A stretch of 64,000 nt of DNA, from positions 1,914,370 to 1,978,369 of the forward strand of contig NZ_CP043875.1 of assembly GCF_032878975.1 (NCBI RefSeq), written 5' to 3'. Below, piece by piece: positions 15,570 to 33,286 of this stretch (position 1 is the stretch's first letter; each line of letters opens with the position of its first letter). The notes under the pieces are model-generated. The model was not told the DNA's origin, ran no database searches, and saw nothing but the letters and a program-made list of their open reading frames with translations. The DNA comes from Methanoplanus sp. FWC-SCC4 (GTDB lineage Archaea > Halobacteriota > Methanomicrobia > Methanomicrobiales > Methanomicrobiaceae). A program made the translations under genes and the position numbers.

Positions 15570-17276
15570 TTAAAATTGATTTTCATCATCTTTTAGAAGG
15601 CACCATATTTTATTCCCGTAATTTCCGAGATCAATTCTTAAAAATGCCTTTTTGGATGCAAATTTGGCAGATGCAGGGATTTCATACACAATCACGCCTT
15701 CAAACCTCTCCCTTCTGTCAAGCCATTTGGAAACGTAGGGCGCACCGGCATTTTCCATATAATCGGACGGAGTGCAGTCTTTGTACTCTTTTCCGTTATA
15801 GACTAAGGTTATATCATCATTTTTAGGCGTGAGTATCTTCTCGTTTCCTTCTCCTCTGTAACCCATATGGATTATATCAACAGTTGCCAGGAGGTACGTC
15901 TTCCCAAGCGCCGGTTTAACTAATTCTTTTTTTCCGGAACTGTCTTTTAAAAGCAGTCCCTTCTTTATCTGCCAGTTTGTGATCCTGATTGAGATATCAT
16001 TGTTTCGTCCGGCATCCTGGTAATGAAACTGTGTATTGAGGGGCATTGCATTATTTATGCATTTTATGGTTGAAATTTTGAAATTTTCAGAATCAAGAGT
16101 CATATCTCCCGTTTTTGACACGGCACTTTCAATTTTCCCAATGCCTTTTTTCAGGTATTCATTACCACTCTTTAAATCCTCATTATCGAAAAATACCGAT
16201 GCATGCCAGAATGATGATGCAGATCTCAGGACAAGAGACAGTCCGTTGAAATAATCTGATTTGACGCCGGTGAATTTTTCAGAAACAGGTACCGGCCGGA
16301 CAATTTCACTCTGTCTCAGGCACTCCCTCATCAGTCTTATGGATTCTGAAGATAATGCCTTTGTATCATCCTTTAGTGACGATTTGTCAATTCTATTGAT
16401 CATTGAAACAATTTCGGGAGAATATTCATTTATGAAATCAGAGAGATAACTGTCAGCCTGATAATCTCCGGCAAGAGAGTTTACAGGATCAAAGACAACC
16501 GGAGAAGACAGTTCATTTCCTGAATTTTCATATGGAATTATGCCATTCCCGCTTTTGATGTTTACCGATGACCAAAGATAACAGGGCAGGTATTTTTCAT
16601 CATCACCCCAGTTATCCCTGAGCCTTACTGCATCCTCTTTTGTAAGGATTAGGTAGACAACATAATTATCACTGTCATCTTTGGAATAGATTATTTTCAC
16701 AAAACCAACAGAGTCAGCTATTTCGGAATTGTAAATCTCCCTTACAATCCTGGTTGCATCCGACTCATACCACCACAGAGTGTCAGGGAATATTCCATCA
16801 GAATCCTGATAATTCAGGGTAATTATGATGCCGTATTCCCCGCTGAGATATTCCGGCACCCTTGTATCCTCATCGTTCACCAGATCATTTATTTCAATAC
16901 TGTAATAATTCAGATTACGGCCTGCATTTTCAAACCCTGACGCAGCTTTCTGATAAAGCAAACATACTTTTTCCCCGATAAGCCCGTCATCATAACCGCC
17001 CGAATATCTGACCCTTTCGTCAACAACTTTTTCAAAATATTCTCCGGCCTTTTCCGGTTCAATACCTACATTTTTTACCATAATCACAGAATCAACTTTT
17101 TTATCGAAAGGAACAACTTCCTTTTGATATTTTGTTGAATTGTCATCATCTGTGAACAAAAAGCCTGAACTGAAAATTAAAACCGATGCAAATATTGTAA
17201 TCAGCACCGCTAAAATTATCAGAAGACGATTTTTATGATAATTTTTCAAACCGTTCAAAATATTTTTTTCCGACAT
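15570..17276 (-). CDS. Membrane-anchored protein with C-terminal DUF4352-like domain
   Basis: A 568-residue protein with a basic start and one strong membrane anchor (about residues 17-40, ILAVLITIFASVLIFSSGFLF), then a large outside part. Residues about 400-560 resemble the immunoglobulin-like DUF4352 family: an N-terminal strand with ISIRITNWQIKKG, then GKTYLLATVDIIHMGYRG, and GVIVYEIPASAKFASKKA near the end, the classic 'k.yl.v.v.v.N.g' and 'G.l.Feip' layout. The middle (about 60-390) is not recognised and has long helices. It probably marks the edge of the surface-protein island; no direct partner is visible. Confidence 0.65.
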   Translation of the reverse strand: MSEKNILNGLKNYHKNRLLIILAVLITIFASVLIFSSGFLFTDDDNSTKYQKEVVPFDKKVDSVIMVKNVGIEPEKAGEYFEKVVDERVRYSGGYDDGLIGEKVCLLYQKAASGFENAGRNLNYYSIEINDLVNDEDTRVPEYLSGEYGIIITLNYQDSDGIFPDTLWWYESDATRIVREIYNSEIADSVGFVKIIYSKDDSDNYVVYLILTKEDAVRLRDNWGDDEKYLPCYLWSSVNIKSGNGIIPYENSGNELSSPVVFDPVNSLAGDYQADSYLSDFINEYSPEIVSMINRIDKSSLKDDTKALSSESIRLMRECLRQSEIVRPVPVSEKFTGVKSDYFNGLSLVLRSASSFWHASVFFDNEDLKSGNEYLKKGIGKIESAVSKTGDMTLDSENFKISTIKCINNAMPLNTQFHYQDAGRNNDISIRITNWQIKKGLLLKDSSGKKELVKPALGKTYLLATVDIIHMGYRGEGNEKILTPKNDDITLVYNGKEYKDCTPSDYMENAGAPYVSKWLDRRERFEGVIVYEIPASAKFASKKAFLRIDLGNYGNKIWCLLKDDENQF

Positions 17277-17338
17277 ATTCCTAAATCCTTCATGATCCTG
17301 TTTATGATTCCCGCCGGGGGCGTAAATTATTTTGAAAA

Positions 17339-18340
17339 TTAAATTGGATCAGGCCACCCGAACCGTGCTTCCTTAAAGTACTCTTTCATAAATTCAGCAA
17401 ACTCATATGCAGAATTTTTATTGGTGGCAGTTTCCGGGACAGTATATGCATAGACCACGGATTCTCCAACCCTCTCTGATCCGATTGATGAAAACCTCTC
17501 AAAGCTTAGCTTTACAGATATCGTGCTGTAATAGTCCTTCAGGCTCATGTTTCCAAGATTCAGTTCGTCAGGAAGGGTTACGTATTTCAAACCGTGTCCT
17601 TCTGCAACACTTCTGTACTCAAAACCATAATCAACACCGCCTGACTCAATTAAATATAACAAAAATATACTCCCGTCACGAACTGCTATTTTTGAATCGG
17701 ATGGTTTTACAAACTCAGGAAGAATTATCTCGGTTTTATCATTCTTTTTTATTATTTCAACAGGTTCTTTTAAATGGTCACCAAGGATTTTGTCAAATAT
17801 TTCGGTGTCTCCATAATATTCATTTGCAAGATAGGATACCATAAATGTACGATAACCGCAGGCATCAAGAACAGGATTTGAAAACCCGACCTTCACATCA
17901 GATCTTTTAAGTATCTCATACCAGTTCTCCGAAGTTATCTCATCAGAATACAGGGATTTGTCAGTATAGGCAATTACCATCTCATTTGTAGCAAACGCCG
18001 TATAATTGTCAGCATAATTTTTTGTACTCCCTGGCATCGGGATATACATCATATCCGGAATTAAGGACTGATCTGCAACAATTACAAGATCAAGAGGCCT
18101 TTTCAGGTCAGTAACCTGACGTATGCACTGAATACTCCCGTGGCCCTCAATTATGACATCAGTTCCCGGATGAGTCTCTTCAAAATCCCTTTCAATCTCT
18201 TCAAGGGGAAGAAGAAGACTCCCTGCCGGAACAATTTTAATTTCAGTTTTTTCAACCTGATCTTCTGTAGTACATCCTGAAAACAGAACAAAGACTGAAA
18301 GTATTAAAGATAACAGGAAGAGAAACCTGATGTTTCTCAT
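17339..18340 (-). CDS. Tungstate/molybdate-type ABC solute-binding lipoprotein (WtpA/ModA-like)
   Basis: A 333-residue lipoprotein (lipobox FSGC at about residues 20-23). The mature part begins IKIVPAGSLLLPLEEIERDF and continues HGSIQCIRQVTDLKRPLDLV and AFATNEMVIAYT, then VGFSNPVLDACGYRTFM; these match the WtpA/ModA class of oxyanion-binding proteins that hand tungstate or molybdate to an ABC permease. No permease or ATPase gene (wtpB/wtpC) is in the window. The gene overlaps the stop of the preceding SUOX-like lipoprotein gene by one base (TAATG), so the two are almost certainly co-translated. This pairs an oxyanion-binding protein with proteins of a molybdopterin-enzyme-like fold. Confidence 0.8.
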   Translation of the reverse strand: MRNIRFLFLLSLILSVFVLFSGCTTEDQVEKTEIKIVPAGSLLLPLEEIERDFEETHPGTDVIIEGHGSIQCIRQVTDLKRPLDLVIVADQSLIPDMMYIPMPGSTKNYADNYTAFATNEMVIAYTDKSLYSDEITSENWYEILKRSDVKVGFSNPVLDACGYRTFMVSYLANEYYGDTEIFDKILGDHLKEPVEIIKKNDKTEIILPEFVKPSDSKIAVRDGSIFLLYLIESGGVDYGFEYRSVAEGHGLKYVTLPDELNLGNMSLKDYYSTISVKLSFERFSSIGSERVGESVVYAYTVPETATNKNSAYEFAEFMKEYFKEARFGWPDPI

Positions 18341-18942
18341 TAGGAATTACCTCCCTTTATCTCTATTTTCTCAACCCACTTTACCCAGGAACTGCCTTCT
18401 GTAATTACATCTTTTGAATCCGAAATAATTGCAATCCTGAACGGAGCCCCGTCATTGTATGAAAGAGGCTCTTTGTCCTGCTCATACATCAGAATAACTT
18501 TTAATTCAGGGGGTTCAATCTCTTTTAAATCCGGATTTAAGGTGATGAAATCCCGACCATTTACCTGATCGTAATCAAAGACCCACATATATCCGTCATT
18601 TGCTGAAATCCATAAGGAATCGTTCTCCTTCATTCCGCCTGCTTTTTGGATAAGTTCTGTCAGGGGAACCCCGCGACATTCATAAGGCCCGTATTTTATC
18701 CCGACAGTTGAAACTGAATAGCCGTATCCTAATGCATCCTGCATCTCTAAAATTTCGTCATAGGAATAAACAGTTTCAATCCCGTCTGATCCGGTGAGTG
18801 TAAGATTTCCCTTAATGGCAGCATTTGTATCCTGACCGGATTTTTCATCCCCGGCCTGTGTGCACCCCGAGAAAATTACCATGCAGATAATAAGGGCTGA
18901 AAAAAAACCGGTTAAATAGGTTTTTTTAGAAATATATGACAA
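18340..18942 (-). CDS. Lipoprotein with a single molybdopterin-oxidoreductase-like (SUOX-fold) domain
   Basis: A 200-residue protein starting at TTG 18942, justified by GGAGGG 9 bases upstream. That site lies inside the last codons (Arg-Arg-Glu-stop) of the preceding gene. The lipobox is FSGC (about residues 23-26). The mature domain has the order typical of the Oxidored_molyb family: LTGSDGIETVYSYDEI, then YECRGVPLTELIQKAGG, then ISANDGYMWVFDYDQV, and a final VKWVEKIEI strand. The catalytic core contacts of true sulfite oxidases (cofactor arginines and the cysteine ligand context) are not evident, so I regard it as a fold relative, not an enzyme. It is coupled to the WtpA-like gene. Confidence 0.75.
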   Translation of the reverse strand: MSYISKKTYLTGFFSALIICMVIFSGCTQAGDEKSGQDTNAAIKGNLTLTGSDGIETVYSYDEILEMQDALGYGYSVSTVGIKYGPYECRGVPLTELIQKAGGMKENDSLWISANDGYMWVFDYDQVNGRDFITLNPDLKEIEPPELKVILMYEQDKEPLSYNDGAPFRIAIISDSKDVITEGSSWVKWVEKIEIKGGNS

Positions 18943-18946
18943 TTAC

Positions 18947-19798
18947 TTACTCCCTCCTTATCAAATGGACACTCAGAACAAAACCTGTAATTGCAAAGAT
19001 TATTGTCAGCGGAGACAATGGTGCAGACATATCGGTTTTTTCATTATTTTCATTTTTAAGATCATTTGAAAGGGACTTTGAAGGAGCGTTTGTCTCGCCT
19101 TTGTATCCGCCTTTATAGACCCTGATCTCGTCAACCCATTTAACAGTGTATCCACTTGTCGAAGGGTAGAGATTATCAAACAGGTGAATCTTTTCAGCAG
19201 GGAAACTCTCCCTCATATCAGTGTTGCCAAATACATGAAGTCCCTGGGGGTTTGTTGAATTGTCGGCAAGGAAAGCAAGCCTCATTCCTGCAAAAAATTC
19301 AGGGGGATAGCCGACACCCTGTTTTTCACCCGACTCTGCATCCTCTCCGTTATACCAGCAGAGAACAAGAGGACCCTGACGAGGGGAGGGCTCGCAGATA
19401 TTTTCATAATCAAATAATACGTTATATCCGTCATTTGCCCTGACCATGACATCATCTGACTCTGACATTCCGCCGACAAGGTCACAGAGATCAGCCACAT
19501 TAGTGCCTTTTACAGCACCTCTGTCCTTGAAATTCCTTGTTTCATTTACATCCCACTGCTCTTCCTTGTCATCAGAAAAAACAGGTCCCTGATGGTAATA
19601 ATGAGTGACTCCGTCACCCATAACAGGCAGGTTACTCTCCATCCAGAGGTAATCAACTGTCTTTTGTTCAAGAACCGTTTCACCATCACTGCTGACTGAA
19701 TAAACAGTGACTTCAGTTGTCGGTCCTGCATATGCAAAACCTGTAGTCATGGCAAAGGTGATTGCCAGAAATATTGCAAAAAATCTAAGTATTTTCAT
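18947..19798 (-). CDS. Secreted protein of the HVFGxxDM family with C-terminal membrane anchor
   Basis: Start at ATG 19798 because GAGGTGA precedes it and the signal peptide then begins MKILRFFAIFLAITFAM; the longer ATG at 19846 adds a charged leader. The single mature domain (residues about 24-225) has blocks LWMESNLPVMGDGVTHYYHQGP, here two segments NLPVMGDG and VTHYYHQGP, then GAVKGTNVADLCDLVGG, RANDGYNVLFDY, RQGPLVLCWYNG, GMRLAFLAD and HVFGNTDM. The C-terminus is a short PLSPL stretch, a hydrophobic helix and a basic RRE tail, an archaeosortase-like or plain anchor. The sequence is a distant, extended relative of the SUOX-like fold. Function unknown. Confidence 0.75.
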   Translation of the reverse strand: MKILRFFAIFLAITFAMTTGFAYAGPTTEVTVYSVSSDGETVLEQKTVDYLWMESNLPVMGDGVTHYYHQGPVFSDDKEEQWDVNETRNFKDRGAVKGTNVADLCDLVGGMSESDDVMVRANDGYNVLFDYENICEPSPRQGPLVLCWYNGEDAESGEKQGVGYPPEFFAGMRLAFLADNSTNPQGLHVFGNTDMRESFPAEKIHLFDNLYPSTSGYTVKWVDEIRVYKGGYKGETNAPSKSLSNDLKNENNEKTDMSAPLSPLTIIFAITGFVLSVHLIRRE

Positions 19799-19802
19799 TA
19801 TT

Positions 19803-20648
19803 TCACCTCGTTTTCTTATAAATAATACAGGACACTCCAAATGCACCGAGAATTACAAATACAGAAAGGGGTGCTTTGGATTCTGCCGGAATATCTTTTG
19901 CACCGGCCTCTTTTAACGGCAGCATCTCAATTTTGCTCACATATTTTACAGAAAGACCGCCCGATGAGGGCCATTCGCCGTTGAAATAGTGGATATATTT
20001 TTCATCAAAAAAATCATTCATATCCTGGTTTCCAAAGACATGATAACCCCAAGGATTTGTGTCCGTGTCTCCAAAGACAACAAGTCTCATTCCGGTATAG
20101 AAATCAGGAGGATATCCTGTACCCTGTCTGTCGCCTTCAGCTGAATTGTCATCCCCGTTATACCAGCAAACTACAAGAGGACCCTGCCTGTTATCAGAAT
20201 AATAAACATTTTTGTATCCGAATTTTTTTGAAAAGCCGTCTTCTGAAGCGATTCGGACTTCATAGTTCTCCGGAAGCCTTCCTGCAAGTTCACAGAGATC
20301 GGCAACATTTGTGCCCTTTACAGCCCCATAATCCCTGCTTAACACATTTTTGTCCTCTGAGGGATTCAGGGGATCGTTTTCATCAAACGTCGGACCCTGC
20401 ATATAGTAATGAGTTACACCGTCACCCATTACCGGGAGGTTTTGTTCAAGCCATTTGTAATCGTATGTTTCATCAAAGAGAACGGTGTTTCCATCCTCTC
20501 CATATTTGATTACCGAAAGCTCTTGTGTTGCCGCAAAACACGGACCTGCCATTGCCAGAAATGCTATAAATATACAGAACAATGAAATTTTGTTCAGATT
20601 AAACAGTCCTGAAAGCTGATTTTCAAAATATAAAATTATACCAGACAT
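19803..20648 (-). CDS. Secreted protein of the HVFGxxDM family with C-terminal membrane anchor (paralogue)
   Basis: A 281-residue paralogue of the next gene. A signal peptide ends near residue 39 (AMAGPCFA). The same blocks occur in order: NLPVMGDGVTHYYMQGPTF, GAVKGTNVADLCELAG, ASEDGFSKKFGY, RQGPLVVCWYNGDD, GMRLVVFGD and HVFGNQDM. The end has a proline-containing APLSVF stretch, a hydrophobic helix and a KKTR tail, again suggesting surface anchoring. Its stop lies 4 bases before the next start, whose ribosome-binding site overlaps this gene's end, so it is part of one operon with its neighbours. One His of the HYYHQGP block is Met here. Confidence 0.75.
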   Translation of the reverse strand: MSGIILYFENQLSGLFNLNKISLFCIFIAFLAMAGPCFAATQELSVIKYGEDGNTVLFDETYDYKWLEQNLPVMGDGVTHYYMQGPTFDENDPLNPSEDKNVLSRDYGAVKGTNVADLCELAGRLPENYEVRIASEDGFSKKFGYKNVYYSDNRQGPLVVCWYNGDDNSAEGDRQGTGYPPDFYTGMRLVVFGDTDTNPWGYHVFGNQDMNDFFDEKYIHYFNGEWPSSGGLSVKYVSKIEMLPLKEAGAKDIPAESKAPLSVFVILGAFGVSCIIYKKTR

Positions 20649-20666
20649 AAAACTAATACCTAAATA

Positions 20667-21932
20667 TCAATAACTCCTGATTTTTTCAGGGCTTTGGGGA
20701 ATATCTCCCGGAAATATCCCCAGTATATCGGACATTTTCCGGGATAACGAATTTTCAAAACAGGAATTTATCTCAAACCTATCCCCGTATTCATTAACCG
20801 GTTTCTGATTTATCTCAGAAGTTTTCTCAGAAAGAATTACAGGGACAAATTCGCACAATGCAGTTTTGCCGTTATCCAAAACATCAATTCTCAGATATCC
20901 GTACACTCCCGGTGAAGATTTCAGATACCCTTCCGGCTTTTCATCAGAAAGGGCGTATAAATTCCCACCTCCCGTTCCGGTTATCAGATAATGAGTCAAA
21001 TCTGAAAAGTAATGCTCATAGGCATGAACATGCCCTGAGAAAACAGCATCAACAGAGTATCTGCTGAAATAACCACTCCATTGATCCCTTATATTTTTCC
21101 ATCCCCCGGGATGCCTTTTATCCGAACTATACGGAGGATGGTGGAAATATACAAATTTTAGATTATTGTTACCAGGAAGACTCTCCTCGATCCAGTCATT
21201 TTGTAAATCCATCAGAGGACAGGCATTTTCATTGCTGTCAAGTGAATAAAAGGATGAATCGCCGCATTCAAAGGAGTACCATTCCGGATAACCAAAATAA
21301 TCATAATATAATGTGCTGTTATCCTCATGGTTACCCGGAGAGGTAAAGACTGATGAATTCCTTAGAACCGGACTCATTTCATTAAAAAATTCATCCCATC
21401 CGGAAACATCCAAACCTTCCGAGACCATATCTCCTGTAAATATTACAAACAATGGTTCCTGACCGGAAATTTCTGATGCAAGCAGGCTCCGGATATAATT
21501 TCCATCACCAGTTCCTCCGCTGGCATGGGTATCTCCAATGACCACAAAAGAAAATCCTCCGGATTTTGGAAAAGTCCTGAAAGTGCAGTCACCTGATTCA
21601 AATCCCTCCCCTGTAATTTTATAATGATATACAGTGTCAGGAACAAGACCTGAAAGTTCTGCACGATATAAGCAGGCAGCCGGATTATAATCCGGTTTTT
21701 CCAGGATTTTTGAATATCCGGCCATCTTTGTATAATTTAATTCATCGTCATAGAATAACTTAAAAGATGATTCTTCACCGGATATCCAGTTTACAAAAGC
21801 TGAGGATTGACCTGTGTTTGTTACATACGGCCCGGATACTTCGGAAATCTGACTATTTGCAGATACTGGCATAGAGGAGACTACTGACACTAAAAGCAGT
21901 GAAGAAATTAAAAGAATAATATTAGTCTGCAA
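20667..21932 (-). CDS. Secreted purple-acid-phosphatase-like metallophosphoesterase
   Basis: Start taken at TTG 21932, which follows the upstream gene's stop by 7 bases, has GGGAGTGTGAGAG before it and yields a textbook signal peptide (TNIILLISSLLLVSVVSS); ATG 21977 is the alternative. An N-terminal fibronectin-like domain with TNTGQSSAFVNWISGEESS precedes the calcineurin-like phosphoesterase core: VIGDTHASGG, FTGDMVSEG, SPGNHED, FHHPPYSS and SGHVHAYEHYF, which supply the two-metal site residues. Such enzymes cleave phosphomono- or diesters outside the cell. Its place inside the SUOX-like operon suggests release of phosphate or of a phosphorylated cofactor, but that is speculation. Confidence 0.8.
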   Translation of the reverse strand: MQTNIILLISSLLLVSVVSSMPVSANSQISEVSGPYVTNTGQSSAFVNWISGEESSFKLFYDDELNYTKMAGYSKILEKPDYNPAACLYRAELSGLVPDTVYHYKITGEGFESGDCTFRTFPKSGGFSFVVIGDTHASGGTGDGNYIRSLLASEISGQEPLFVIFTGDMVSEGLDVSGWDEFFNEMSPVLRNSSVFTSPGNHEDNSTLYYDYFGYPEWYSFECGDSSFYSLDSNENACPLMDLQNDWIEESLPGNNNLKFVYFHHPPYSSDKRHPGGWKNIRDQWSGYFSRYSVDAVFSGHVHAYEHYFSDLTHYLITGTGGGNLYALSDEKPEGYLKSSPGVYGYLRIDVLDNGKTALCEFVPVILSEKTSEINQKPVNEYGDRFEINSCFENSLSRKMSDILGIFPGDIPQSPEKIRSY

Positions 21933-21939
21933 GAAACTC

Positions 21940-24900
21940 TCACACTCCCAGGTTTGCATAGCATTCAAAAGTCTCATACGGCTCTATTGTAACGCTGTCA
22001 ATCTCTTTTTTAGAAGAGCCCGAAACAAGTTTTACCGCATAAGTTCCGATATTCATATCAGTAAAAAGATGAGGAGTTATCTCTCCGGAATATTTCCCGT
22101 TTATGTAGATCTTTGCCCCGTCAGTTTTCGATGTTACATAAAGTCTCCCTGAAGGATATTCTTTCATCTCAACATGAACAACTCCTGCAAATTCCTCATC
22201 CGAGCCCATTAATATCCTCACGGTTCCTGAGGATGGAATATAGCCCGGCTTTGAGAGGGTAACCTCGTGAAAGCCGCAGGAAAGGCCGTCTATTTTATAA
22301 GGTGTTGAAAATCCTGTTCTGAACCCGTCAATAAATATTTCAGCCCCTTTTGGTTCCGATTCAACATAAATCTCATATAACCTGTCATTGTAAGGTTCTA
22401 TTTTAAAATTATGGCTCACACGTGCATCAGGCTGAATATAGTATGAAAGATACCTGTCTTCATCAAGGACTGTAAGATAAGAATCAGAACCTGTAATCTC
22501 GCTCTCGCACGGGATTGTAAGGCCGGAATAAACCCCTTTGAAGCTTACAGAATTATCCTTGTAAACAGCGGAATCGAAACTTATATCCGAACCTTTTGTA
22601 TTCTCCGATTCAGGAACAAAAACACCGCAGACTGAATCACCATACACATAAACACCCAGTGAACCTGTCTTTTCAAGACTTTCTCTTCCTGTGGATGTGG
22701 TTGTTTTTTTCCCAAGAGTCACAGTGTGCCTGCCCGCCTTAATTCCGCTAACAACATCCGGGGTTATCCTGGATGTGTCCTTGTTGTCAATATAGATACT
22801 GAGTCCTTTAGACGGCCCGTTTACATACAGACCACCGGAATTGGAATTTGCAGGAATTTCTGAAAAGAGATCAAATTTTTCCTTGTCAGAAATTATCTTT
22901 GACAAAGATGTCATATCAGCAACAATTTCACAATCAGAACCGGCTGTGACAATCTCATCATAATCCTGATAATAATCCTTTTTTATGCTGAATTTATGCG
23001 ACTCTCCCGCAGGAATAAGAAAAACTTCGGGGGTTGTTTTCCCGGTATAAACACCGTCAAGGTAGATCAGGGCCCCCCGCGGATTGGATTTGACACTGAT
23101 ATCATAATTTTTCTTATTTTGAATGTCTTTGTCTGATTCGGAATTCTTATTTTCCCCTCCGGCCACCTGTAAATCTGTTTCCTTAATTGATACTGAAGAG
23201 ACCTCCTCTTCTCCAAAAATCAGTTTCCAGATTCCGGATATGAATCCTTCCAAAATTCCAACCGATTCGGGCTTTTCACCAACAGCATTCCCAAGGGTTT
23301 CATTTATACCGGTTGTAACTGCTGATTTGTTGTCAGCACCTGAAATTACTGAAGCAGGATTGTCAGCTTTTCTTATATCACCGGCATCTTCATTGCTTTC
23401 ATCAGATGCACCAGTCTTCAGACCTCCGGCTTTATTTATAAGAAAGACATTCCTGGTTTCAATGAGAGCCCCGTTTTTGCTTCCCTCAATGCTCTTAATC
23501 CTGATTTCATTATTGGATTTTTTCATAAAAGGCAATACGTCGCTTTCAAATGATTTCAGGCAGGAATCATCAGTATTTAATACCCCAAACCATTCTTCAT
23601 CATTAAAAAAGACAGAATTTTCTCCTTTTTCAGAAAGTCCGGGAGGATCTTCGGGGCATGAGTATATTATGCTGAGCCGGGCCTCCCCGGGAGATGCTTC
23701 AACATCACCATTCTGGTTTGCCGAAGTGATGAATTCGCCTTCCTCACCTTCCGGATTGGGATTTGCCATTATTATGTCGCAGCCCTCATAACCCCACCAT
23801 AAAATCCGGTCACAGCTCTCATTTTTGACTGTAAGAAAAAGGGCAGCACCGTATGATGTGAATTCAGAATCTGAATTCCCCGTATTTTTTACGGTGATTA
23901 TCTGTTCATCCCCTGATTTCAGGGAATCCTTAACGTCATATGCAAAGGTTTCAGAGTAATAAGAAGGTACATCCTTTGAGAGATCAAAATATTCCCTCTC
24001 GGGCTCCTTCTTTTTACCGTTGAACAATACCTCACATTCAGGTTTTAAACCTGATTTCAAAGAAGTGTCACGTGAATTTCCGATATAAACAAAGAGTCTT
24101 GCTGAATTAATTTCATCACTTTTTGAAATGCCGGTTTTTAAGGTGTACTTTGCAAGATCATCTGATCCTAAAACTTCCGGATTCCCATCCGTTTTTAATA
24201 CAAAAACGCTGCCATTTACAGACCCTTTTTCAAAAAGGCGAAGCTCTTTCCCAAAATATTCGGAAGTCTGCTCCTCCAGGGTAAATTCAAGAGATGTTTG
24301 AGTGCAGAGACTTATGCTGACAGACTTTTCTTCAGAGGGTTTATAGCCATCCTTTTCAACACGGACAAGATAACTGCCCTCATCGAGAGTATCTATATTG
24401 CAGTCTGTCAGGGCGTACTCTTCATCGTCTATGAATACGGTGGCACCAGAAGGTGTGCTCTTTATGTTCAAAATCCCGTTTGGCGGATCGTCATCACTGT
24501 AGATTTCAACCCTGCTGATTTTCTGAATTGATAAACCGGTTGTTGTAGGGTAAACACCATTAAAATAATGCCAGCAATCCTCATCAAGGGATTTCTCCAT
24601 ATCGGTAATCCCAAATACATGATCACCTGTCGGATTTGTGGTAGTGTCTGCGAGGAATACAAGCCTCATTCCCTCACGATAATCTAAAGGCACATAGCCT
24701 GAAGATTCAGAACTGCCGGTATACCATGCAATCACAATCTCACCCTGACGTGACGGGGGGGAATACACATTTTCATATGGAAAATATTTAAAAAAACCAT
24801 CTTCTGAGACTATCTTAACCTCATCACCCTCATCCATCGAGCTGACAAGATCACATATGTCACGAACAGAGCTTCCCTTTACGGCACCCATGTCCTTTGT

Positions 24901-25194
24901 CTCATAATTTATGTCCTCTTCGGGATTCCACATATTGTATGGAAGATCGGGATGGACTTCTTCCCATTTGGCCTCAAAAACGGGACCCTGATGATAATAG
25001 TGGGTGACACCATCCCCGTATACGGGCAGATTTTTCTCCATCCATTTATAATCGATGGTTTTTTCATCAATTACAGTCACTCCGTCGTTTGCATATTTTA
25101 TAGCAGTAATTTCACCGGTGCCTGCAAAGGCCTGTCCGGACAAAGCAGCCAGAAAAACCAGTACGAAAAATAAAACAGTTCTGTTAGCCGGCAT
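21940..25194 (-). CDS. Large secreted PEGA-repeat protein with N-terminal HVFGxxDM domain
   Basis: A 1084-residue secreted protein. After the signal peptide (ending AGQAFA-like, about residue 24) comes one HVFG-type domain: NLPVYGDGVTHYYHQGPVF, GAVKGSSVRDICDLV, RQGEIVIAWY, GMRLVFLAD and HVFGITDM (to about residue 235). PEGA modules follow: SGATVFIDDEEY at about 255, then further copies around 690-760, 770-830, 940-1000 and 1010-1060 (e.g. PKGAEIFIDGFRTG, DGAKIYINGKYSG). Between them lies a DUF3344-like block (DRILWWGYEGCDIIMANP). PEGA domains are surface modules often linked to S-layer or envelope contact. No C-terminal anchor is seen, so it may be held by other surface proteins. Confidence 0.75.
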   Translation of the reverse strand: MPANRTVLFFVLVFLAALSGQAFAGTGEITAIKYANDGVTVIDEKTIDYKWMEKNLPVYGDGVTHYYHQGPVFEAKWEEVHPDLPYNMWNPEEDINYETKDMGAVKGSSVRDICDLVSSMDEGDEVKIVSEDGFFKYFPYENVYSPPSRQGEIVIAWYTGSSESSGYVPLDYREGMRLVFLADTTTNPTGDHVFGITDMEKSLDEDCWHYFNGVYPTTTGLSIQKISRVEIYSDDDPPNGILNIKSTPSGATVFIDDEEYALTDCNIDTLDEGSYLVRVEKDGYKPSEEKSVSISLCTQTSLEFTLEEQTSEYFGKELRLFEKGSVNGSVFVLKTDGNPEVLGSDDLAKYTLKTGISKSDEINSARLFVYIGNSRDTSLKSGLKPECEVLFNGKKKEPEREYFDLSKDVPSYYSETFAYDVKDSLKSGDEQIITVKNTGNSDSEFTSYGAALFLTVKNESCDRILWWGYEGCDIIMANPNPEGEEGEFITSANQNGDVEASPGEARLSIIYSCPEDPPGLSEKGENSVFFNDEEWFGVLNTDDSCLKSFESDVLPFMKKSNNEIRIKSIEGSKNGALIETRNVFLINKAGGLKTGASDESNEDAGDIRKADNPASVISGADNKSAVTTGINETLGNAVGEKPESVGILEGFISGIWKLIFGEEEVSSVSIKETDLQVAGGENKNSESDKDIQNKKNYDISVKSNPRGALIYLDGVYTGKTTPEVFLIPAGESHKFSIKKDYYQDYDEIVTAGSDCEIVADMTSLSKIISDKEKFDLFSEIPANSNSGGLYVNGPSKGLSIYIDNKDTSRITPDVVSGIKAGRHTVTLGKKTTTSTGRESLEKTGSLGVYVYGDSVCGVFVPESENTKGSDISFDSAVYKDNSVSFKGVYSGLTIPCESEITGSDSYLTVLDEDRYLSYYIQPDARVSHNFKIEPYNDRLYEIYVESEPKGAEIFIDGFRTGFSTPYKIDGLSCGFHEVTLSKPGYIPSSGTVRILMGSDEEFAGVVHVEMKEYPSGRLYVTSKTDGAKIYINGKYSGEITPHLFTDMNIGTYAVKLVSGSSKKEIDSVTIEPYETFECYANLGV

Positions 25195-25707
25195 TAGAAT
25201 CTATACCCCTGAAATACGATATTTTCTGATTATAAAAGGTATATACTGAGAGATTAAATAACATTATCATTTTTTATAAGTTAACTTAATTTAATTTATA
25301 AAATTTACTTTTTGCCACAAGTAATGAAAAATAAACGCCGCACCTTCCAAAACACAACAGAAATATCATGCGTGGATAAACAAAGGCCACATATACAGAA
25401 AATGGATATTCAGGGTTTTTTTATAAATAAATTGGTACCGGACAGTTTCCAAAAGTTTTATGGGAAAATAATCTGGCAAAATGATGAGTTAACTACAATA
25501 AGTTAATTAAATCAACCAGGTTGTAAATTAAGTATCCTCTTGATTTTTAAAAATCAAAGCTTGTATTTTTCAACTTTTAGCCTGTAAAAGCTCACCAATA
25601 GGCATTTTTGCCTTACAAATTCTAATATACAACACAAATATAAAATTTACACACCGTAAGGCATTCTGCTTTACATGAAACCACACAATGTTAATGGAGT
25701 TTATTTA
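25195..25707 (+). promoter_or_regulatory. Divergent intergenic region with an operator-like palindrome before the giant surface gene
   Basis: This 513-base AT-rich gap separates the leftward PEGA-protein gene from the rightward giant gene and has no credible coding sequence (the 64-codon frame at 25312-25506 has no family features). For the rightward gene, ATATAAAATT (25638-25647) is a good TATA box and would put the transcript start near 25668. The imperfect palindrome GTAAGGC-ATTCT-GCTTTAC (25656-25674) covers that point, and GCCTTAC occurs again at 25610-25616. GGAG at 25696-25699 is the ribosome-binding site for ATG 25708. Confidence 0.5.
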
Positions 25708-28700
25708 ATGCACAGTAATAAGATGAAAATTATGGCATTAACAGCATTCAGCATTCTGCTGATGCTTTTGTTTGTCATACCGGCCGGTGCGGCAGGCACT
25801 TCTGAAGTCACAATTCAGAAAATTGCCGACGACGGCACTACCGTTCTCAACCAGACGACGGTAACAGCAATGTGGATGGAACAAAACCTGCCTGTACAAG
25901 GTGATGGTGTTACGCATTATTATCACCAGGGCCCGGTATTTGAAGGAGCATGGAATGCATCAAATGGAGACTATAATCCATGGAATCCTGAAGAAGATGT
26001 AAACTGCTATCCCGCAAAAGACCAGGGGGCTGTAAAAGGAACCGATATTAAGGATCTCTGTGATCTTATTGGAGGAGCAGAAGCAGGTGATGAAATCCAG
26101 CTTGTCTCTTCAGATGGTCTTGACCGAACATTTGGTTATTTTAATGTATACACCCCTCCGGACCGCCAGGGAAAAATGGTTCTGACATGGTATAAAGACG
26201 GCCAGTATTCAAATGGCTCATATACTGATGGAATGAAAAATGTCTTTTTCGCAGACAATTCCATAAATCCATGGCAGGAACACATCTTCGGTGCCTGGGA
26301 TATGCATGAATCCTTCGCTGATCAGTACTGGTATAACTACACAGATCAGGGCAAAGAATACCCTTCAACAACAGGACTCGGTGTAAAGTACATAAATAAA
26401 ATCAAAATACTGACAGACGAGCCCGCACCTGCAAAAGATACACTCTTCGACGCAGAACTCACCCTGGAAGATGCCACGTGCACAGTAAATGCAACATCCG
26501 AAGTATCATATGAAGTTGATCAGTTGACACCGCTTGGTGCATTAAAGATGGCATCCCTTGAAGGTGAAGGGTTTAACATAAACGTAACTGACAAGAAATT
26601 TTCAGAGTTATGCATTCTGATGCTTGATGACATAGATCAGTTTATCCGGAAAAACCCGGGATACTGGGAATGTTATGTAAACGGTGCAAAACTTGACGGT
26701 TACAGCAATAATGATACAGAAGGTCTGAATGTAAAAGCACTTTCAGATGGTGACACAGTCAACTTCTATTACGCTGAAGGTTCCTATGACATCGAAGCTG
26801 TAAATGCAGGAAATGCTCTTGCAGAGGTACTAATTACCGTAAATACCACAGCTCCACCTGCTCCGGTTGTTGATACTGTATTCTCGGGAGAAGTTGTACT
26901 TACTAATGAAAACACAACAGTAAGCACAATAGAGGGTGTCGATTACCAGGTAAACAAACTTACACCACTCGGAGCACTAAAAACAGCATCTCTTACAGGT
27001 GAAGGATTTGCCATAAATGTAACAAACAAAAAATTTGATACTCTTGGAATTCTGATGCTAAATGACATTGAAGAACATTTCTTTGTTAAATCAACAGTAG
27101 GATGGGAGTGCTATGTTAACGGCCAATACATGGACGGATACAACAACCCGGATACACAGGGACTTAACATAAAAACACTTCAGGCAGGAGATACCGTAAA
27201 CTTCTATTATGTGGAGATTATGGGGGACAACGAAGCAGAAACTGCACTAAATGCAACAGCAAAGGTCCTTATAACCGTTGCCTCACCTGCACCAGTTGTA
27301 GACACCGTATTTTCAGGAGAAATTACACTCACGGATGAAAACATAACATTAAGCACAATAGAGGGTGTCGATTATCAGGTAAACAAACTTACACCACTCG
27401 GAGCACTAAAAGCAGCATCTCTTACAGGTGAAGGATTTGCCATAAATGTCACAAACAAAAAATTCGATACTCTTGGAATTCTGATGCTAAATGACATTGA
27501 AGAACACTTCTTTGTTAAATCAACAGCAGGATGGGAATGCTATGTTAACGGCCAATACATGGACGGATACAACAACCCGGATACACAGGGACTTAACATA
27601 AAAACACTTTCAGGCGGAGATACCGTAAACTTCTACTATGTAGAAATTATGGGGGACAACGAAGCAGGAACAGCACAAAATGCAACAGCAAAGGTTCTTA
27701 TAACCGTTGACTCAGTAAATCCTGATGCTGATTATATATACAACGGAGAAGTTCTCCTCTCAGACGGGAATACCACAGTTACTGCACCAGGCGGTGCTAC
27801 TTATGAGGTAAAACAGCTCACACCACTCGGGGCACTGCAGGTTGCTTCAGAACAGGGTGACGGATTCGCATTCAATGTATCCGACAAGAAGATGCTTCCT
27901 GGATCAGACAAACCAGGACTGATGCTTCTGGATGACATTGAAAGCTACATGTACGTGGATGGCAAAAGCTGGTGCTGTTTTGTTAACGGGGTGCTGCTTG
28001 ATGACTGGAACAATTACCTGACAGACGGATTCAACCTAAAAACAGTTGCAAACGGGGATAAAGTAGTCTTTTGCTACGGAACAAAAGGCCTTACAACTCT
28101 TGAAAATGCAGAAGCAGTCGTTAAAATGACAGTAAGCACAAGTGTTGAACCACCGGTTTCATGGAAGATATCACTCACCGGAAAAAACTCTGCTGAAGTT
28201 ACAAAAACTCAGTATGAAGCTGATGTTTTGGAACGCGGTGTTGAATACACAGATGCAGACGGTACATGGAAAGGTCTTCCACTCTATTGTGTTGTTGGAA
28301 AGATAGACGATGATGACCCGGAAACATTTAATGAAGCTCTTGCCGCAGAGGGTTATTCCATAAAGCTGACATGCACTGACGGCTCTTATTCAATCAACTT
28401 TGAAAGCTCCGATATCGCAAACAGCAACGACTACATTCTGGCAAACACACTTGACGGTGAGATACTCCCTGAGACAATCGGAGAAGACAAACCATGCTTC
28501 CCCCTGAGAATGATAGGAAATCAGGTCGCTGCAGGTCAGCTGATAGGCAGCGTTTCCACAATTGAGCTTATCGGACTTCCGGAGGAACCAAAAGGATGGA
28601 ACCTTAAAATCAACGGTGTCTTAAACGACACAATCACACAGGCAGAATTTGAAGAGGGAGGCTGCCACAGGATAAACTGGACAGATCCAAACGGAGACGT

Positions 28701-31062
28701 GTGGTCTGGTGTTCCTCTCTGGGTTATGGCCTCTGTATCAGACAATATAGAATCAACAGGACACTGGACATTTGACGATGATGCAGCAGCAAATGGTTAC
28801 ACAGCAAGGCTTGTCGCATCCGACGGATTTTCAAGAGATTTTGCGTCAGCAGACATTGCAAGAAACAGCAGTTTCATCCTTGCAGACAAACTAAACGGCC
28901 AGGCCCTTGAAGTAAATGAAGACAAACCTGTTTATCCGCTTAAACTTGTAGGCGATTCCCTATGGGACAATGATCAGAACAAATTCTCAGGAAGTGCAAT
29001 CGGCGGAGTCGTTGAAATCGATCTCGTTGAACTAATCCCCGGAGAACCGGCAGAAGGTTCATGGAACCTTGCACTTGAAGGAAAGATTGACACTGTAATT
29101 ACAAAAGATTACTTCGCTCTTGCAAGGCAGTGCAGCCACCACGACACCACATATACTGACGCAAACGGATGTGTATGGGAAGGAATTCCTCTCTACGATC
29201 TCTGCGGATGGGTTGATGACAGGGTATCACACGGTTCATCAGGATTCAACATGGGTCTTGCAACCACAGGTTACACAGTCGTAATGGTTGCGGCAGACGG
29301 ATATTCAAAAGAAATTCCAAGCAGTCTGATTGTAGCAGGCATCAGTGATATATCTAAAGAGATAATTGTGGCAGACAGACTCAACGGCAGTGCACTTGAG
29401 TATTCTTCAGGTCTCAGGGTTGTCGGGCCCGGACTCCCTGCAAACAGTTACAGTATCGGAAACCTTTCAAAGATTAAACTTACCGAATTCCAGATTCCCG
29501 TCGATGCACCTACACTTACAATTGTAAAATACGGGGCAGACGGAATAACAGAAGTTGAAAATGTTACAGTAACATACGCAGACCTCGAGTCACAGTTCGA
29601 CGTCTATGGGGACGGAGAAACACTCTATAAATTCGAAGGTCTATGCTTTGCCGAAGGCGATCCCTGGGACATGGGAGAAACATACCCTGGAGGCTTCAAG
29701 ATTACAGAGCCTATGAAAGGAACAGCTGTTTCAGACATCTGCAGTCTTGTAGGCGGAATGCCTGAAGAAACTGAGATTAAATTCATAGCAGAATGCGACG
29801 GCTGGACAACAAAGCTCTCATACGATGTAATATACAATGACCGTGAGGCAAACCCGAGACTCGGAACACCGGTCCTTGCATGGTACGGCTATGCGGGAAC
29901 CGGCAAAGGTGCTATGCCGGCATATGGTGACGGATTCAGGTTATTCTATGAAACCGACGACCACATCTTCGGACAAAGAGATATGTTTGAGACCATCCCG
30001 TCTGAATACTGGCACTACAATTCAGGACTTCCGTCATGTGCAGGGCTTTCTCCAAAGTATGTTTCAAGAATAGAACTTCAGACAGTGCCTGACGCCAAGT
30101 GGAATCTTTCACTCCACGGGGCAATCGACGCAACAATAAGCAAAGGCTTCTTTGAGGGTGCAATGGGATGCACAATGGCACAGGGCGAGGAAAGCCATAA
30201 GGCAACATATACCGATGCATCCGGCAACGAATGGGCGGGAATGCCATTATGGCTGTTATGCGGTTTCGTGGATGATGCAAACCCACACACAGGCAGGTCG
30301 TACGACACAGAACTTGCTCAGGCCGGATATGACATAATAATCACCGGTGAAGACGGCAAAGAAGTAACAATTGATAGCAGAGACACCATAAGAAGTCAGA
30401 ACTACATAATTGCAAACACCAAAAATGATGTTCTCTTAAGACCGGGAGACGGATTATGGCCACTTAAACTTGTCGGAGAAAACGTAACCGGTGAGATGTC
30501 AGTGGACAACATTACAAGCATAACACTTGGAATCGAGGCTCCCGAGACCGGTACAATAACACTCAGATACGGATGGAACTTCATATCAACACCAAAGCGT
30601 CTTTCAGACGGCAAAAACACCGCATCAATATTCTCTGATGTAGACACAGACGGTCACCCTGTCTACCAGTATGATGCTGCAACTGCCACCTGGAAAACAC
30701 TTACATCATCAAGTCCGATAAATCCGCTTGAAGCAGTATGGATTTACTCAAAACAGACAGATGACGTTGTAATCACCTACACCAACAGTCCTCTCGCAAC
30801 ACCTCCTTCAAAGAAGCTTTCAAAAGGATGGAATGCTATAGGATTTGGAAACACACAGAATGCACCTGCAAATATTGCATTTATGACAGTTGCTGACAAC
30901 TGGGTATATGCACTCAAATACAATTCAGTAAACAAAAACTATGACAATGTCATTGTAAACGGAGGTACCGGAATTTATGCGGACAGCCGTGAACTGCAGC
31001 CGACAGATGCTTTCTGGCTATATTCCAAAGAGGAATGTTACCTGTCTGCGTTGACAGTATGA
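25708..31062 (+). CDS. Giant modular surface protein: SUOX-like, HVFGxxDM and DUF4430-like repeats
   Basis: Start at ATG 25708 (GGAG 8 bases upstream), giving 1784 residues and a signal peptide; ATG 25675 adds a leader without such a site. Modules in order, by nucleotide: HVFG-type domain with GDGVTHYYHQGPVF and HIFGAWDM (25800-26420); four DUF4430/transcobalamin-C-like repeats (26431-28140), each with WECYVNG-like and GDTVNFYY-like motifs; three short SUOX-like domains (about 28155-29495), each with a G-[VLIM]-P-L core such as EGIPLYDLC; a second HVFG domain with HIFGQRDM (29510-30080); a fourth short domain with AGMPLWLLC (30095-30530); and a C-terminal pair of GWNFISTP/GWNAIGFG units (30545-31059). 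There is no membrane anchor; the downstream gene may provide one. Role unknown. Confidence 0.8.
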   Translation: MHSNKMKIMALTAFSILLMLLFVIPAGAAGTSEVTIQKIADDGTTVLNQTTVTAMWMEQNLPVQGDGVTHYYHQGPVFEGAWNASNGDYNPWNPEEDVNCYPAKDQGAVKGTDIKDLCDLIGGAEAGDEIQLVSSDGLDRTFGYFNVYTPPDRQGKMVLTWYKDGQYSNGSYTDGMKNVFFADNSINPWQEHIFGAWDMHESFADQYWYNYTDQGKEYPSTTGLGVKYINKIKILTDEPAPAKDTLFDAELTLEDATCTVNATSEVSYEVDQLTPLGALKMASLEGEGFNINVTDKKFSELCILMLDDIDQFIRKNPGYWECYVNGAKLDGYSNNDTEGLNVKALSDGDTVNFYYAEGSYDIEAVNAGNALAEVLITVNTTAPPAPVVDTVFSGEVVLTNENTTVSTIEGVDYQVNKLTPLGALKTASLTGEGFAINVTNKKFDTLGILMLNDIEEHFFVKSTVGWECYVNGQYMDGYNNPDTQGLNIKTLQAGDTVNFYYVEIMGDNEAETALNATAKVLITVASPAPVVDTVFSGEITLTDENITLSTIEGVDYQVNKLTPLGALKAASLTGEGFAINVTNKKFDTLGILMLNDIEEHFFVKSTAGWECYVNGQYMDGYNNPDTQGLNIKTLSGGDTVNFYYVEIMGDNEAGTAQNATAKVLITVDSVNPDADYIYNGEVLLSDGNTTVTAPGGATYEVKQLTPLGALQVASEQGDGFAFNVSDKKMLPGSDKPGLMLLDDIESYMYVDGKSWCCFVNGVLLDDWNNYLTDGFNLKTVANGDKVVFCYGTKGLTTLENAEAVVKMTVSTSVEPPVSWKISLTGKNSAEVTKTQYEADVLERGVEYTDADGTWKGLPLYCVVGKIDDDDPETFNEALAAEGYSIKLTCTDGSYSINFESSDIANSNDYILANTLDGEILPETIGEDKPCFPLRMIGNQVAAGQLIGSVSTIELIGLPEEPKGWNLKINGVLNDTITQAEFEEGGCHRINWTDPNGDVWSGVPLWVMASVSDNIESTGHWTFDDDAAANGYTARLVASDGFSRDFASADIARNSSFILADKLNGQALEVNEDKPVYPLKLVGDSLWDNDQNKFSGSAIGGVVEIDLVELIPGEPAEGSWNLALEGKIDTVITKDYFALARQCSHHDTTYTDANGCVWEGIPLYDLCGWVDDRVSHGSSGFNMGLATTGYTVVMVAADGYSKEIPSSLIVAGISDISKEIIVADRLNGSALEYSSGLRVVGPGLPANSYSIGNLSKIKLTEFQIPVDAPTLTIVKYGADGITEVENVTVTYADLESQFDVYGDGETLYKFEGLCFAEGDPWDMGETYPGGFKITEPMKGTAVSDICSLVGGMPEETEIKFIAECDGWTTKLSYDVIYNDREANPRLGTPVLAWYGYAGTGKGAMPAYGDGFRLFYETDDHIFGQRDMFETIPSEYWHYNSGLPSCAGLSPKYVSRIELQTVPDAKWNLSLHGAIDATISKGFFEGAMGCTMAQGEESHKATYTDASGNEWAGMPLWLLCGFVDDANPHTGRSYDTELAQAGYDIIITGEDGKEVTIDSRDTIRSQNYIIANTKNDVLLRPGDGLWPLKLVGENVTGEMSVDNITSITLGIEAPETGTITLRYGWNFISTPKRLSDGKNTASIFSDVDTDGHPVYQYDAATATWKTLTSSSPINPLEAVWIYSKQTDDVVITYTNSPLATPPSKKLSKGWNAIGFGNTQNAPANIAFMTVADNWVYALKYNSVNKNYDNVIVNGGTGIYADSRELQPTDAFWLYSKEECYLSALTV
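26866..27294 (+). repeat. DUF4430-like repeat unit, copy 2 (429 bp, nearly identical to the next unit)
   Basis: The unit from GTTGTTGATACTGTA (26866) to 27294 repeats almost base for base from 27295, apart from a handful of changes. The encoded 143 residues differ at only a few sites (for example STVGWECY against STAGWECY). Copies 1 and 4 of the same domain in this protein are much more diverged. Confidence 0.85.
27295..27720 (+). repeat. DUF4430-like repeat unit, copy 3 (nearly identical to copy 2)
   Basis: This is the second member of the near-identical tandem pair; both share the motifs LTPLGALK, INDIEEHFF-like NDIEEHFFVKS and NPDTQGLNIKTL. High identity against a background of diverged copies indicates recent duplication or gene conversion. 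Such repeats may vary in number between strains. Confidence 0.85.
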
Positions 31063-31078
31063 AAAAGGAGAGTATTCA

Positions 31079-32521
31079 ATGAAAATAAAAATACTAACCA
31101 CCATTTTTCTTTTAATCTTGTCAGTGATACTTGCATCGGCAGCACCACCCATCCCTTGTGATTACTATGGCAGTGTAACAATCGACGGGAAAACTGCACC
31201 TGCAGGAACCGTAATTGTTGCAAAGGTTGACTTAAACAAAAGAGGAGAATTCACAGTCACTACACCGGGAGTCTTTGGAGATTCAGGCACATTTGATGAC
31301 AGACTCTTTGTAAGCGCAACCGAAGAAGAGATGGCAGCAGGTAACCCCGAAGTCACCTTCTGGTACGGCACTTACAAAGCAAAACAGACTTCCGCATATA
31401 CTCAGGGAGGGCACATCAGCCTGAACCTTGAATTTACTACCTCACAACCTCCGGATGCAGGAGTGGATACCCCTGTTGGAAAAAAGGATTCATCATTCGG
31501 ACTGGATGATATGGAAACCGAAGTCCAGGAAGGTGGAAAACAGAAGGTAAACATCAACACCTTTGATGCATCATCAGAGGTCACTGTTGACTCTGAAGAA
31601 GACGAAATTATTATCTCTGACAGCAGTTCCGGATGGGATACGCTAAGGATTAGAACACAAGGAGAGCCCACAGTTGAAGGAGGTAATGTTTCAGGTACGG
31701 TTGAAAGTGTAAGTGCAAAAAGCAAACCTGTAAAATCAGAAGAATTAGGAGCAGATGTCGGCCAGATAAAGGCACAGTTCTCAGTTGAAATGGGAGAGAT
31801 TCCTGCTGGTTCTGCATCCATTGAAACCACAATCAGCAAAGAGCCTCCCGCAAATCAAAAATCCGCATTCATTCTCGCATCAGAAAATGAAGGCAATAAA
31901 ATCAGTGAAATTGCATATACAATGACTGTAAACAAAGCCAACATTGAAAATGAGGAAAATGGAGGACTTATCAAGAGTGCAACAATTTACATGTCGGTAT
32001 CACATGCATGGGCTGTAAAACAGGGTGTTTCAAATATATTCATATACCGCCGCCCGGACAACGGAGGAGTGAACGACATCCAGAAACTTGCAACAACCTA
32101 TGTGGGAACTGATCCTGACAACCCTGCAAATGATCTCTTCAGGGCAGAGTCTCCAAACGGTCTTTCAACGTTCATCCTGAGTTCAATAAAGAGTGACACA
32201 CCCGCACCACAGCCCGTTAATCCGGGCGGCTCAGGCGGCGGAGGATCAGGAGGTTCTGGCGGTTCTGCAGGAGATTCCTACTTTAAGTTCAACCCTGATG
32301 AAAAAGCACCTGTAACAAAACCTGATACTCCAGACACCGATATTCCTGAACCAAAAGCTACTGAAAACAGCGATTCCACAAACCAGGATAACTCTGAGAG
32401 CACAACAGGAATTACCTTATCCTTAACACAACTCGCATCTCTGATAGCAGTTATCATTGTTGCAAATGCACTTGTAATATATTATATCAAAACCAGAAAA
32501 GATGAGGAAAACAAAAATTAA
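31079..32521 (+). CDS. Surface protein with PGF-pre-PGF-like domain, Gly-rich linker and C-terminal anchor
   Basis: A 480-residue protein 16 bases after the giant gene, with AAGGAG 6-10 bases upstream of ATG. It has a signal peptide (to about residue 21), a beta-rich N-terminal domain starting PCDYYGSVTIDGKTAPAG (about 25-120), and a middle domain (about 210-370) similar to the PGF-pre-PGF family: VGQIKAQFSVEMGEIPAGSAS, split as QFSVEMGEIPAG, and SAFILASENEGN. Then come a Gly/Ser linker (GGSGGGGSGGSGG, about 383-395), an acidic Pro/Thr/Asp stalk, one membrane helix (about 448-468) and a charged tail. It is the likely membrane anchor for the giant protein, an inference from the operon position. 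Confidence 0.75.
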   Translation: MKIKILTTIFLLILSVILASAAPPIPCDYYGSVTIDGKTAPAGTVIVAKVDLNKRGEFTVTTPGVFGDSGTFDDRLFVSATEEEMAAGNPEVTFWYGTYKAKQTSAYTQGGHISLNLEFTTSQPPDAGVDTPVGKKDSSFGLDDMETEVQEGGKQKVNINTFDASSEVTVDSEEDEIIISDSSSGWDTLRIRTQGEPTVEGGNVSGTVESVSAKSKPVKSEELGADVGQIKAQFSVEMGEIPAGSASIETTISKEPPANQKSAFILASENEGNKISEIAYTMTVNKANIENEENGGLIKSATIYMSVSHAWAVKQGVSNIFIYRRPDNGGVNDIQKLATTYVGTDPDNPANDLFRAESPNGLSTFILSSIKSDTPAPQPVNPGGSGGGGSGGSGGSAGDSYFKFNPDEKAPVTKPDTPDTDIPEPKATENSDSTNQDNSESTTGITLSLTQLASLIAVIIVANALVIYYIKTRKDEENKN

Positions 32522-32587
32522 TCCTTAATCAATTTTTTTTACATATTTCATCAGGCAGGCCGGATAAAGACTGACTGACACACTTTC
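32522..32587 (+). terminator. T-rich transcription end after the surface operon
   Basis: A run of eight T residues (about 32532-32539) follows the stop at 32521, typical of archaeal intrinsic termination. The leftward gene ends at 32588, so the two transcripts converge here. Confidence 0.45.
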
Positions 32588-33040: not shown

Positions 33041-33189
33041 ATCTCTGTCACATTCTCTGACTGACACGTCGGGCAAACCGGGTGCTTCCCGACAGCCTCA
33101 AAAGTTGCCCCGCAGTCATTGCATTTGTACTTTTTTCCTTTAAGACGCTGCTCAAGATCAACGTCCATTGGTCCGCCAACAGAACACAT
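33037..33189 (-). CDS. Small zinc-ribbon protein (50 residues)
   Basis: A 50-residue frame too short for usual gene calling: ATG at 33189, stop TGA at 33037-33039. It encodes two CxxC pairs (CNDCGATFEAVGKHPVCPTC), a classic small zinc ribbon of the rubredoxin-like or Zn-finger type. The start overlaps the next gene by the ATGA arrangement, strong support that it is translated. Such ribbons are usually nucleic-acid or protein binding; a specific role cannot be given. Confidence 0.7.
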   Translation of the reverse strand: MCSVGGPMDVDLEQRLKGKKYKCNDCGATFEAVGKHPVCPTCQSENVTEI

Positions 33190-33286
33190 TAAATGATCAC
33201 CTGATTCTCAATTGTGATGTCTGAAATATTAATCATTTTGGTTTATGGATATTATTTAATCCGGAACAAAAATGCCTTTAAAAAAG

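Follow-up and report, generated by a model that had tools for sequence, protein, structure and literature searches.

A candidate cell-surface system for tungsten and molybdenum acquisition in a methanogen genome

Introduction

Methanogens that live on hydrogen and formate rely on W/Mo-pterin enzymes, the formylmethanofuran and formate dehydrogenases, and sulfidic sediments and digesters offer little of either metal. The sulfite-oxidase (SUOX) fold, the Wtp transporter family and W/Mo uptake as a kind are already known, and the closest described systems are the WtpABC tungstate/molybdate ABC transporter, the PF00174 proteins (sulfite oxidase, SoxC, YedY) and PruR. The last is a periplasmic pterin-binding protein of Agrobacterium, Vibrio and Klebsiella, in which Tyr104 and Trp160 serve pterin binding; it lacks the Mo-ligating Cys and binds reduced pterins, and its pocket is reported to be too small for Moco (PMC13259868).

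Here we analyse an island of Methanoplanus sp. FWC-SCC4 within a window of 64,000 nucleotides, the whole stretch of DNA that was analysed. The comparative evidence and the predicted structures, on which all of the argument rests, make it probable that the island is a cell-surface W/Mo acquisition system. In the open-access literature that was searched, which lacks most subscription papers, we found no description of its secreted domain family, its WtpA2 clade, the cluster or the candidate operator, in agreement with the original prediction, which knew of none for the domain pair as a system. The island thus probably serves to gather a scarce and essential metal by a route that has not been described.

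Results

We found that, as originally predicted, five copies of one domain of about 205 residues are spread over four exported proteins. The genes, with the positions of the domain copies, are the following.

15570..17276, minus strand: 568-aa exported protein, possibly the last operon gene, with a paralogue at the other tungstate locus
17339..18340, minus strand: WtpA2, a tungstate-type solute-binding lipoprotein (TIGR03730, separate clade, EGHGSIQ)
18340..18942, minus strand: SUX, a SUOX-like lipoprotein with an invariant TEGxxWVKWV motif (PF00174, 3e-7)
18947..19846, minus strand: 299-aa open frame, likely ATG start 19798, domain and C-terminal membrane anchor
19109-19720, minus strand: domain copy 1, in the 299-aa frame
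19803..20648, minus strand: 281-aa protein, domain and C-terminal membrane anchor
19911-20528, minus strand: domain copy 2, in the 281-aa protein
20667..21977, minus strand: secreted calcineurin-like/purple-acid-type phosphoesterase (PF00149, 9.7e-19)
21940..25194, minus strand: 1084-aa surface protein with the domain, DUF3344 and five PEGA
24490-25119, minus strand: domain copy 3, in the 1084-aa protein
25675..31062, plus strand: 1795-aa surface protein, likely ATG 25708 (domain searches, alignment)
25798-26418, plus strand: domain copy 4, in the 1795-aa protein
28162-28575, 28597-29034, 29062-29490 and 30100-30531, plus strand: SUOX-like repeats of the 1795-aa protein
29506-30087, plus strand: domain copy 5, in the 1795-aa protein
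31079..32521, plus strand: 480-aa exported protein with a C-terminal membrane anchor, adjoining the large protein

The minus-strand order is 1084-aa protein, phosphoesterase, 281-aa protein, 299-aa frame, SUX and WtpA2, with the 1795-aa and 480-aa genes divergent from them. Since the minus-strand neighbours overlap or stand within ~20 bp, they likely form one operon. The 1795-aa protein carries, in order, a domain copy, four DUF4430-like repeats, three SUOX-like repeats, the second copy and one further SUOX-like repeat. The 568-aa protein is 35% identical by BLASTP (E 1e-94) to its 555-aa paralogue (L115:8014-9681), and homologues of the 480-aa protein lie beside the cluster in L007, L010, L016, L017, L031 and L075. 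An Rfam scan of 15000-33500 gave no match, and RNA regulation of the island was set aside.

The copies are 37-52% identical to the first, and every pair of the five scores 228-565, where shuffled sequences reach at most 71 (z 36-110), which rules out chance resemblance. Searching all 2.31 Mb of the genome, which is a single contig, returned these five copies and no others. The domain has no match among Pfam or NCBIfam models, the diheme GEGP family scoring far below its cut-off, and a profile search of PDB sequences gave at best E 0.34; the copies are hence neither aligned by chance nor matched to a known characterised family. The HxFGxxDM signature proposed at the outset is invariant at H, F, G, D and M in the five-copy alignment, where 37 columns are invariant, but is looser across the 110-sequence family (H 75%, F 85%, G 99%, D 99%, M 74% with W 25%). 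The best-kept family residues are G72, G116, W122, W54, E58, D77 and C79, the last being the one widely conserved Cys of the domain, sitting in a predicted helix.

Upon modelling the domain for the 281-aa protein from the 110 sequences (pLDDT 96, pTM 0.92), the best Foldseek matches were PruR structures at modest E-values (1.3e-3). Comparison with sulfite-oxidase-fold proteins, which had been suggested with the original prediction, bore out the resemblance, the domain model aligning with Z 12.7 to PruR and 11.7 to chicken sulfite oxidase against ~6 for unrelated rows; staphylococcal EAP/SSL rows (Z below 6) were taken as background. The domain is therefore predicted to have the SUOX fold, with PruR among the nearest solved structures. 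This nearness would also suit a pterin sensor resembling PruR-DcpA, whose domains would detect extracellular pterins and steer surface behaviour, WtpA2 being merely co-regulated. We consider such a sensor quite improbable, as domain searches of the cluster proteins found no DcpA-type or kinase regulator, sensor kinase or c-di-GMP domain, recurrent neighbours include no such regulator, and conserved ABC transporter components are present instead.

Next, we examined the SUOX-like domains that had been said to accompany the five copies, and which do so: SUX exceeds the PF00174 cut-off (30.6 bits, cut-off 24), and four more lie in the 1795-aa protein. Membership of PF00174 by profile extends to SUX only, because the five-copy domain has no Pfam match. 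By sequence, the SUX profile matches SoxC (2.5e-6) and plant sulfite oxidase (4.6e-6), and the predicted structure (pLDDT 92) aligns to chicken sulfite oxidase with Z 16.2 and to PruR with Z 15.7. The SUOX-like domains detected across the genome are confined to the island and the second (tungstate) locus, both of which carry tungstate-binding genes. Tyr93, Trp161 and Trp164 are invariant in SUX, any equivalence to Tyr104/Trp160 of PruR being conjectural.

Such a predicted fold raises the idea that the proteins are molybdo- or tungstoenzymes of the SUOX type, put together outside the cell at its surface. The column aligned to the Mo-ligating Cys of SoxC holds A10, S9, F8, C7, G1 and Y1 in 36 SUX sequences; seven thus have Cys, but A, S or F stands in most of the others, and catalysis of the known type is therefore not a conserved property. 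Furthermore, the signal peptides look Sec-type rather than Tat on inspection, so export of a folded, cofactor-loaded enzyme is not expected, and we regard surface enzymes as very improbable. The Cys-bearing SUX sequences (L021, L032, L040, L044, L045, L046, L049) are mostly from Methanoregulaceae. The original view that nothing enzymatic is evident holds for the domain but not for the phosphoesterase, correctly placed in the cluster by the same prediction, since PF00149 is an enzyme family.

The tungstate-type binding protein foreseen in the original prediction was recovered as WtpA2, which passes the cut-off of TIGR03730 (tungstate_WtpA; 333 bits, cut-off 242.75). In a tree of 76 rows, the island WtpA2 proteins separate from the canonical WtpA of the same genomes (support 100/100), in a clade that spans archaea, Peptococcaceae and Dehalococcoidia; the sole island row outside it, L011_2541, is preceded by wtpB- and wtpC-like genes. 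An invariant EGHGSIQ-type sequence replaces the canonical [PA][GA]GS[TV], its His being found in 49/49 WtpA2 versus 0/27 canonical proteins. At the positions that we take to be carboxylate ligands of WtpA, D159 is invariant in both groups (49/49 in WtpA2), whereas E241 is found in 40/49 WtpA2 versus 27/27 canonical sequences. The signature occurs in 68/199 genomes, every one of which is among the 80 domain carriers; it is absent from the 119 genomes that lack the domain. The altered pocket beside the conserved Ser suggests that the ligand of WtpA2 may be other than plain tungstate.

The same W/Mo acquisition system could alternatively capture a plain oxyanion, with the SUOX-fold domains binding tungstate, molybdate or thiomolybdate for WtpA2 and no pterin involved. 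WtpA family membership favours an oxyanion, as do the invariant Asp position and an operator in common with wtpA, but the SUOX fold is a pterin-binding fold and PruR binds pterin (PMC13259868). Phosphoesterase homologues are present in many loci of the cluster, and the fusions that join some of them to the domain would fit an organic ligand that carries phosphate. We therefore hold plain oxyanion capture to be possible but doubtful, and lean towards a pterin-bound cofactor as the species captured by the acquisition system.

When searching other genomes for the domain, as had been proposed for archaea, we found relatives in 80/199 genomes and 24/38 genera of the order Methanomicrobiales. The domain was also observed in ethane-oxidising (Argoarchaeum) archaea and in Methanophagales, methane-oxidising relatives, as well as in bacterial contigs labelled Pelotomaculum, Syntrophomonadaceae, Peptococcaceae and Dehalococcoidia, with misbinning possible because several of the relatives outside the order are MAGs; L017, labelled Clostridiaceae, looks archaeal in the WtpA tree. 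The recurring order is large protein, 480-aa homologue, PEGA protein, phosphoesterase, domain protein(s), SUX and WtpA, the last followed in several loci by permease and ATPase genes, which are absent beside WtpA2 at the present island. Across 37 genomes with located copies, which are related and hence not independent trials, WtpA lies within 6 kb of the domain in 35 (median 1.4 kb; ~1% expected by chance).

Another explanation is that these are adhesion or envelope proteins with a structural domain, whose expression merely tracks W/Mo supply. It is consistent with the PEGA, DUF3344 and DUF4430 architecture and with several domain copies per genome, but it does not account for the strict co-occurrence with WtpA2 or explain why polar and aromatic residues are conserved within a fold of ligand-binding type, and we judge it unlikely compared with surface W/Mo acquisition.

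Additionally, the same genome has canonical tupABC and wtpABC together at a second locus (C1:175-181 kb). Its flanks carry an ECF transporter operon and genes for a PEGA protein similar to the island 1084-aa protein and for two surface proteins of 1931 and 1976 aa, each with one SUOX-like repeat. In a Pelotomaculum contig, an ECF S-component (PF09819) is fused to a C-terminal SUOX-like domain (L072:3035-4096; PF00174 E 6.5e-4, below the cut-off; SUX profile 2.5e-5), adjoining two TupA-like genes, a domain protein and an ECF A-A'/T set. Shr-like haemoglobin-interacting domains (PF07550) occur in the Pelotomaculum domain protein at L072:7884-13463 and phosphoesterase at 13609-15132. About 7 kb upstream of a bacterial cluster copy, a moeA-like C-terminal part with a PBP-like domain (L034:1-1227), a molybdenum cofactor gene, adjoins hydrogenase genes.

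Finally, we examined a palindrome, GTTAAYT-N6-ARTTAAC, that stands upstream of clusters in several genera and also upstream of wtpA, wtpB, an ECF-transporter operon, and formate and formylmethanofuran dehydrogenase genes. It was noticed by eye on comparing promoters and then tested; because its definition came from looking at this genome, the decisive test lies in other genomes. The genome motif search places candidate sites in the island as follows.

25266..25299: candidate tandem operator, sites 25266-25285 and 25280-25299, in a 14-bp register
25488..25507: candidate operator GTTAACTACAATAAGTTAAT, one mismatch, in the island divergent promoter

The tandem lies ~86 bp upstream of the start at 25194, and L007 and L008 have the same arrangement. 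Five sites with at most one mismatch occur in the genome, three at the tungstate/ECF/SUOX locus, one at the island and one at formate genes, the last (L117:3787-3806) lying between fdhAB and a formate/nitrite-family transporter gene. Among the database loci, 16/24 sites with at most two mismatches are upstream of cluster genes (1.2 expected), as are 4/4 with at most one; a spacer of 6 performs best and one of 10 second, and shuffled half-sites give 0-4. At canonical wtpA loci, 7/8 sites are upstream of wtpA, six at 50-75 bp (six other genomes) and one at 233 bp. A one-mismatch census of 16 genomes picked from carriers of the domain gave 29 sites, 13 of them within ~300 bp upstream of cluster-type or W/Mo genes (domain/SUOX-repeat proteins 7, wtpB 1, ECF operon 1, fdhA 2, formylmethanofuran dehydrogenase-type 2), and 16 with no obvious W/Mo link. 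Motif counts within the window or single loci are not above shuffles, so only genome-wide ranking and placement are informative. No near-exact k-mers are common to the promoters; de novo k-mers are mostly homologous coding sequence, with AGTTAA and GTTAAC enriched.

ECF operons in two genera, led by a 234-aa methanogenesis-marker-11-like gene, have the palindrome 63-110 bp upstream (L115:9852-13406, L129:3411-5462). Three genomes of one genus keep a one-mismatch site upstream of a gene for a YtvI-like membrane protein, at a distance of 107 bp (L125:3506, L126:3199, L135:2497).

Discussion

The neighbourhood, co-occurrence, separate WtpA2 clade and common operator-like sequence link the island to W/Mo metabolism, while surface location, a predicted binding fold without the conserved catalytic Cys and an adjacent transporter component argue for an acquisition role. 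From these computational results we infer metal or pterin binding, trimming, hand-over, transport, and a regulator with its direction of action. The secreted 1795-aa and 1084-aa proteins and the membrane-tethered 281-aa and 299-aa proteins would present SUOX-fold domains to the surroundings and there bind a W/Mo species, the likeliest being a pterin-bound one such as a molybdopterin-type cofactor from dead cells. The secreted phosphoesterase would trim the ligand, and SUX would hand the metal to its neighbouring lipoprotein WtpA2, which would feed a WtpBC permease/ATPase, its own in some genera and that of the separate wtpABC locus here. A putative regulator acting on GTTAAYT-N6-ARTTAAC would control the island together with tungstate uptake and W/Mo-pterin enzymes. 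The predicted fold speaks for a phosphorylated pterin, as do the fusions to phosphoesterase, and capture of a pterin-bound metal with the metal passed on to WtpA2 would reconcile the pterin and oxyanion hints. Going further, methanogens and some syntrophic partners might scavenge intact or part-degraded tungsto- or molybdopterin through a surface receptor built on a molybdoenzyme cofactor-binding fold and then import the metal, while the pterin might enter by way of the co-regulated ECF transporter; we put this proposal forward tentatively.

The original suggestion, that an oxyanion or metal cofactor is captured outside the cell, is partly supported and gains strength from three lines of evidence that it did not draw on: the near-fixed WtpA2 linkage, a predicted fold near that of a pterin-binding protein, and a candidate operator that also stands at genes for tungstate uptake and W/Mo-pterin enzymes. 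We count against W/Mo acquisition the invariant His beside the conserved Ser of WtpA2 and the absence of E241 in 9/49, the small PruR pocket (PMC13259868), the missing adjacent permease, the 16/29 sites without a W/Mo link and the post hoc definition of the motif. A surface system of this kind, marked by a candidate operator and a diagnostic WtpA2 signature, makes methanogen W/Mo supply directly testable, and gives a widespread undescribed domain a testable role.

Compared with the WtpABC transporter, WtpA2 passes the family cut-off and keeps the Asp position, with permease and ATPase present at some cluster loci, but differs in its separate clade, EGHGSIQ sequence, surface apparatus and orphan state in this genome. 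With sulfite oxidase, SoxC and YedY the island proteins share the predicted fold, and SUX has an EGxxWVKWV-type motif in common with SoxC, whereas their Mo-ligand Cys is not conserved in SUX and the cluster proteins were seen without a Tat-type signal and found without a redox partner domain. PruR, the top structural match of the models, is likewise a secreted stand-alone SUOX fold without the conserved Mo-ligating Cys, but it is a protein of ~170 aa whose partner is DcpA or a kinase regulator (PMC13259868), whereas here the domains sit in large surface proteins and the island has an ABC-type binding protein in place of a DcpA/kinase regulator. If the acquisition reading is true, Cys-less SUOX folds extend from pterin sensing to metal or cofactor acquisition.
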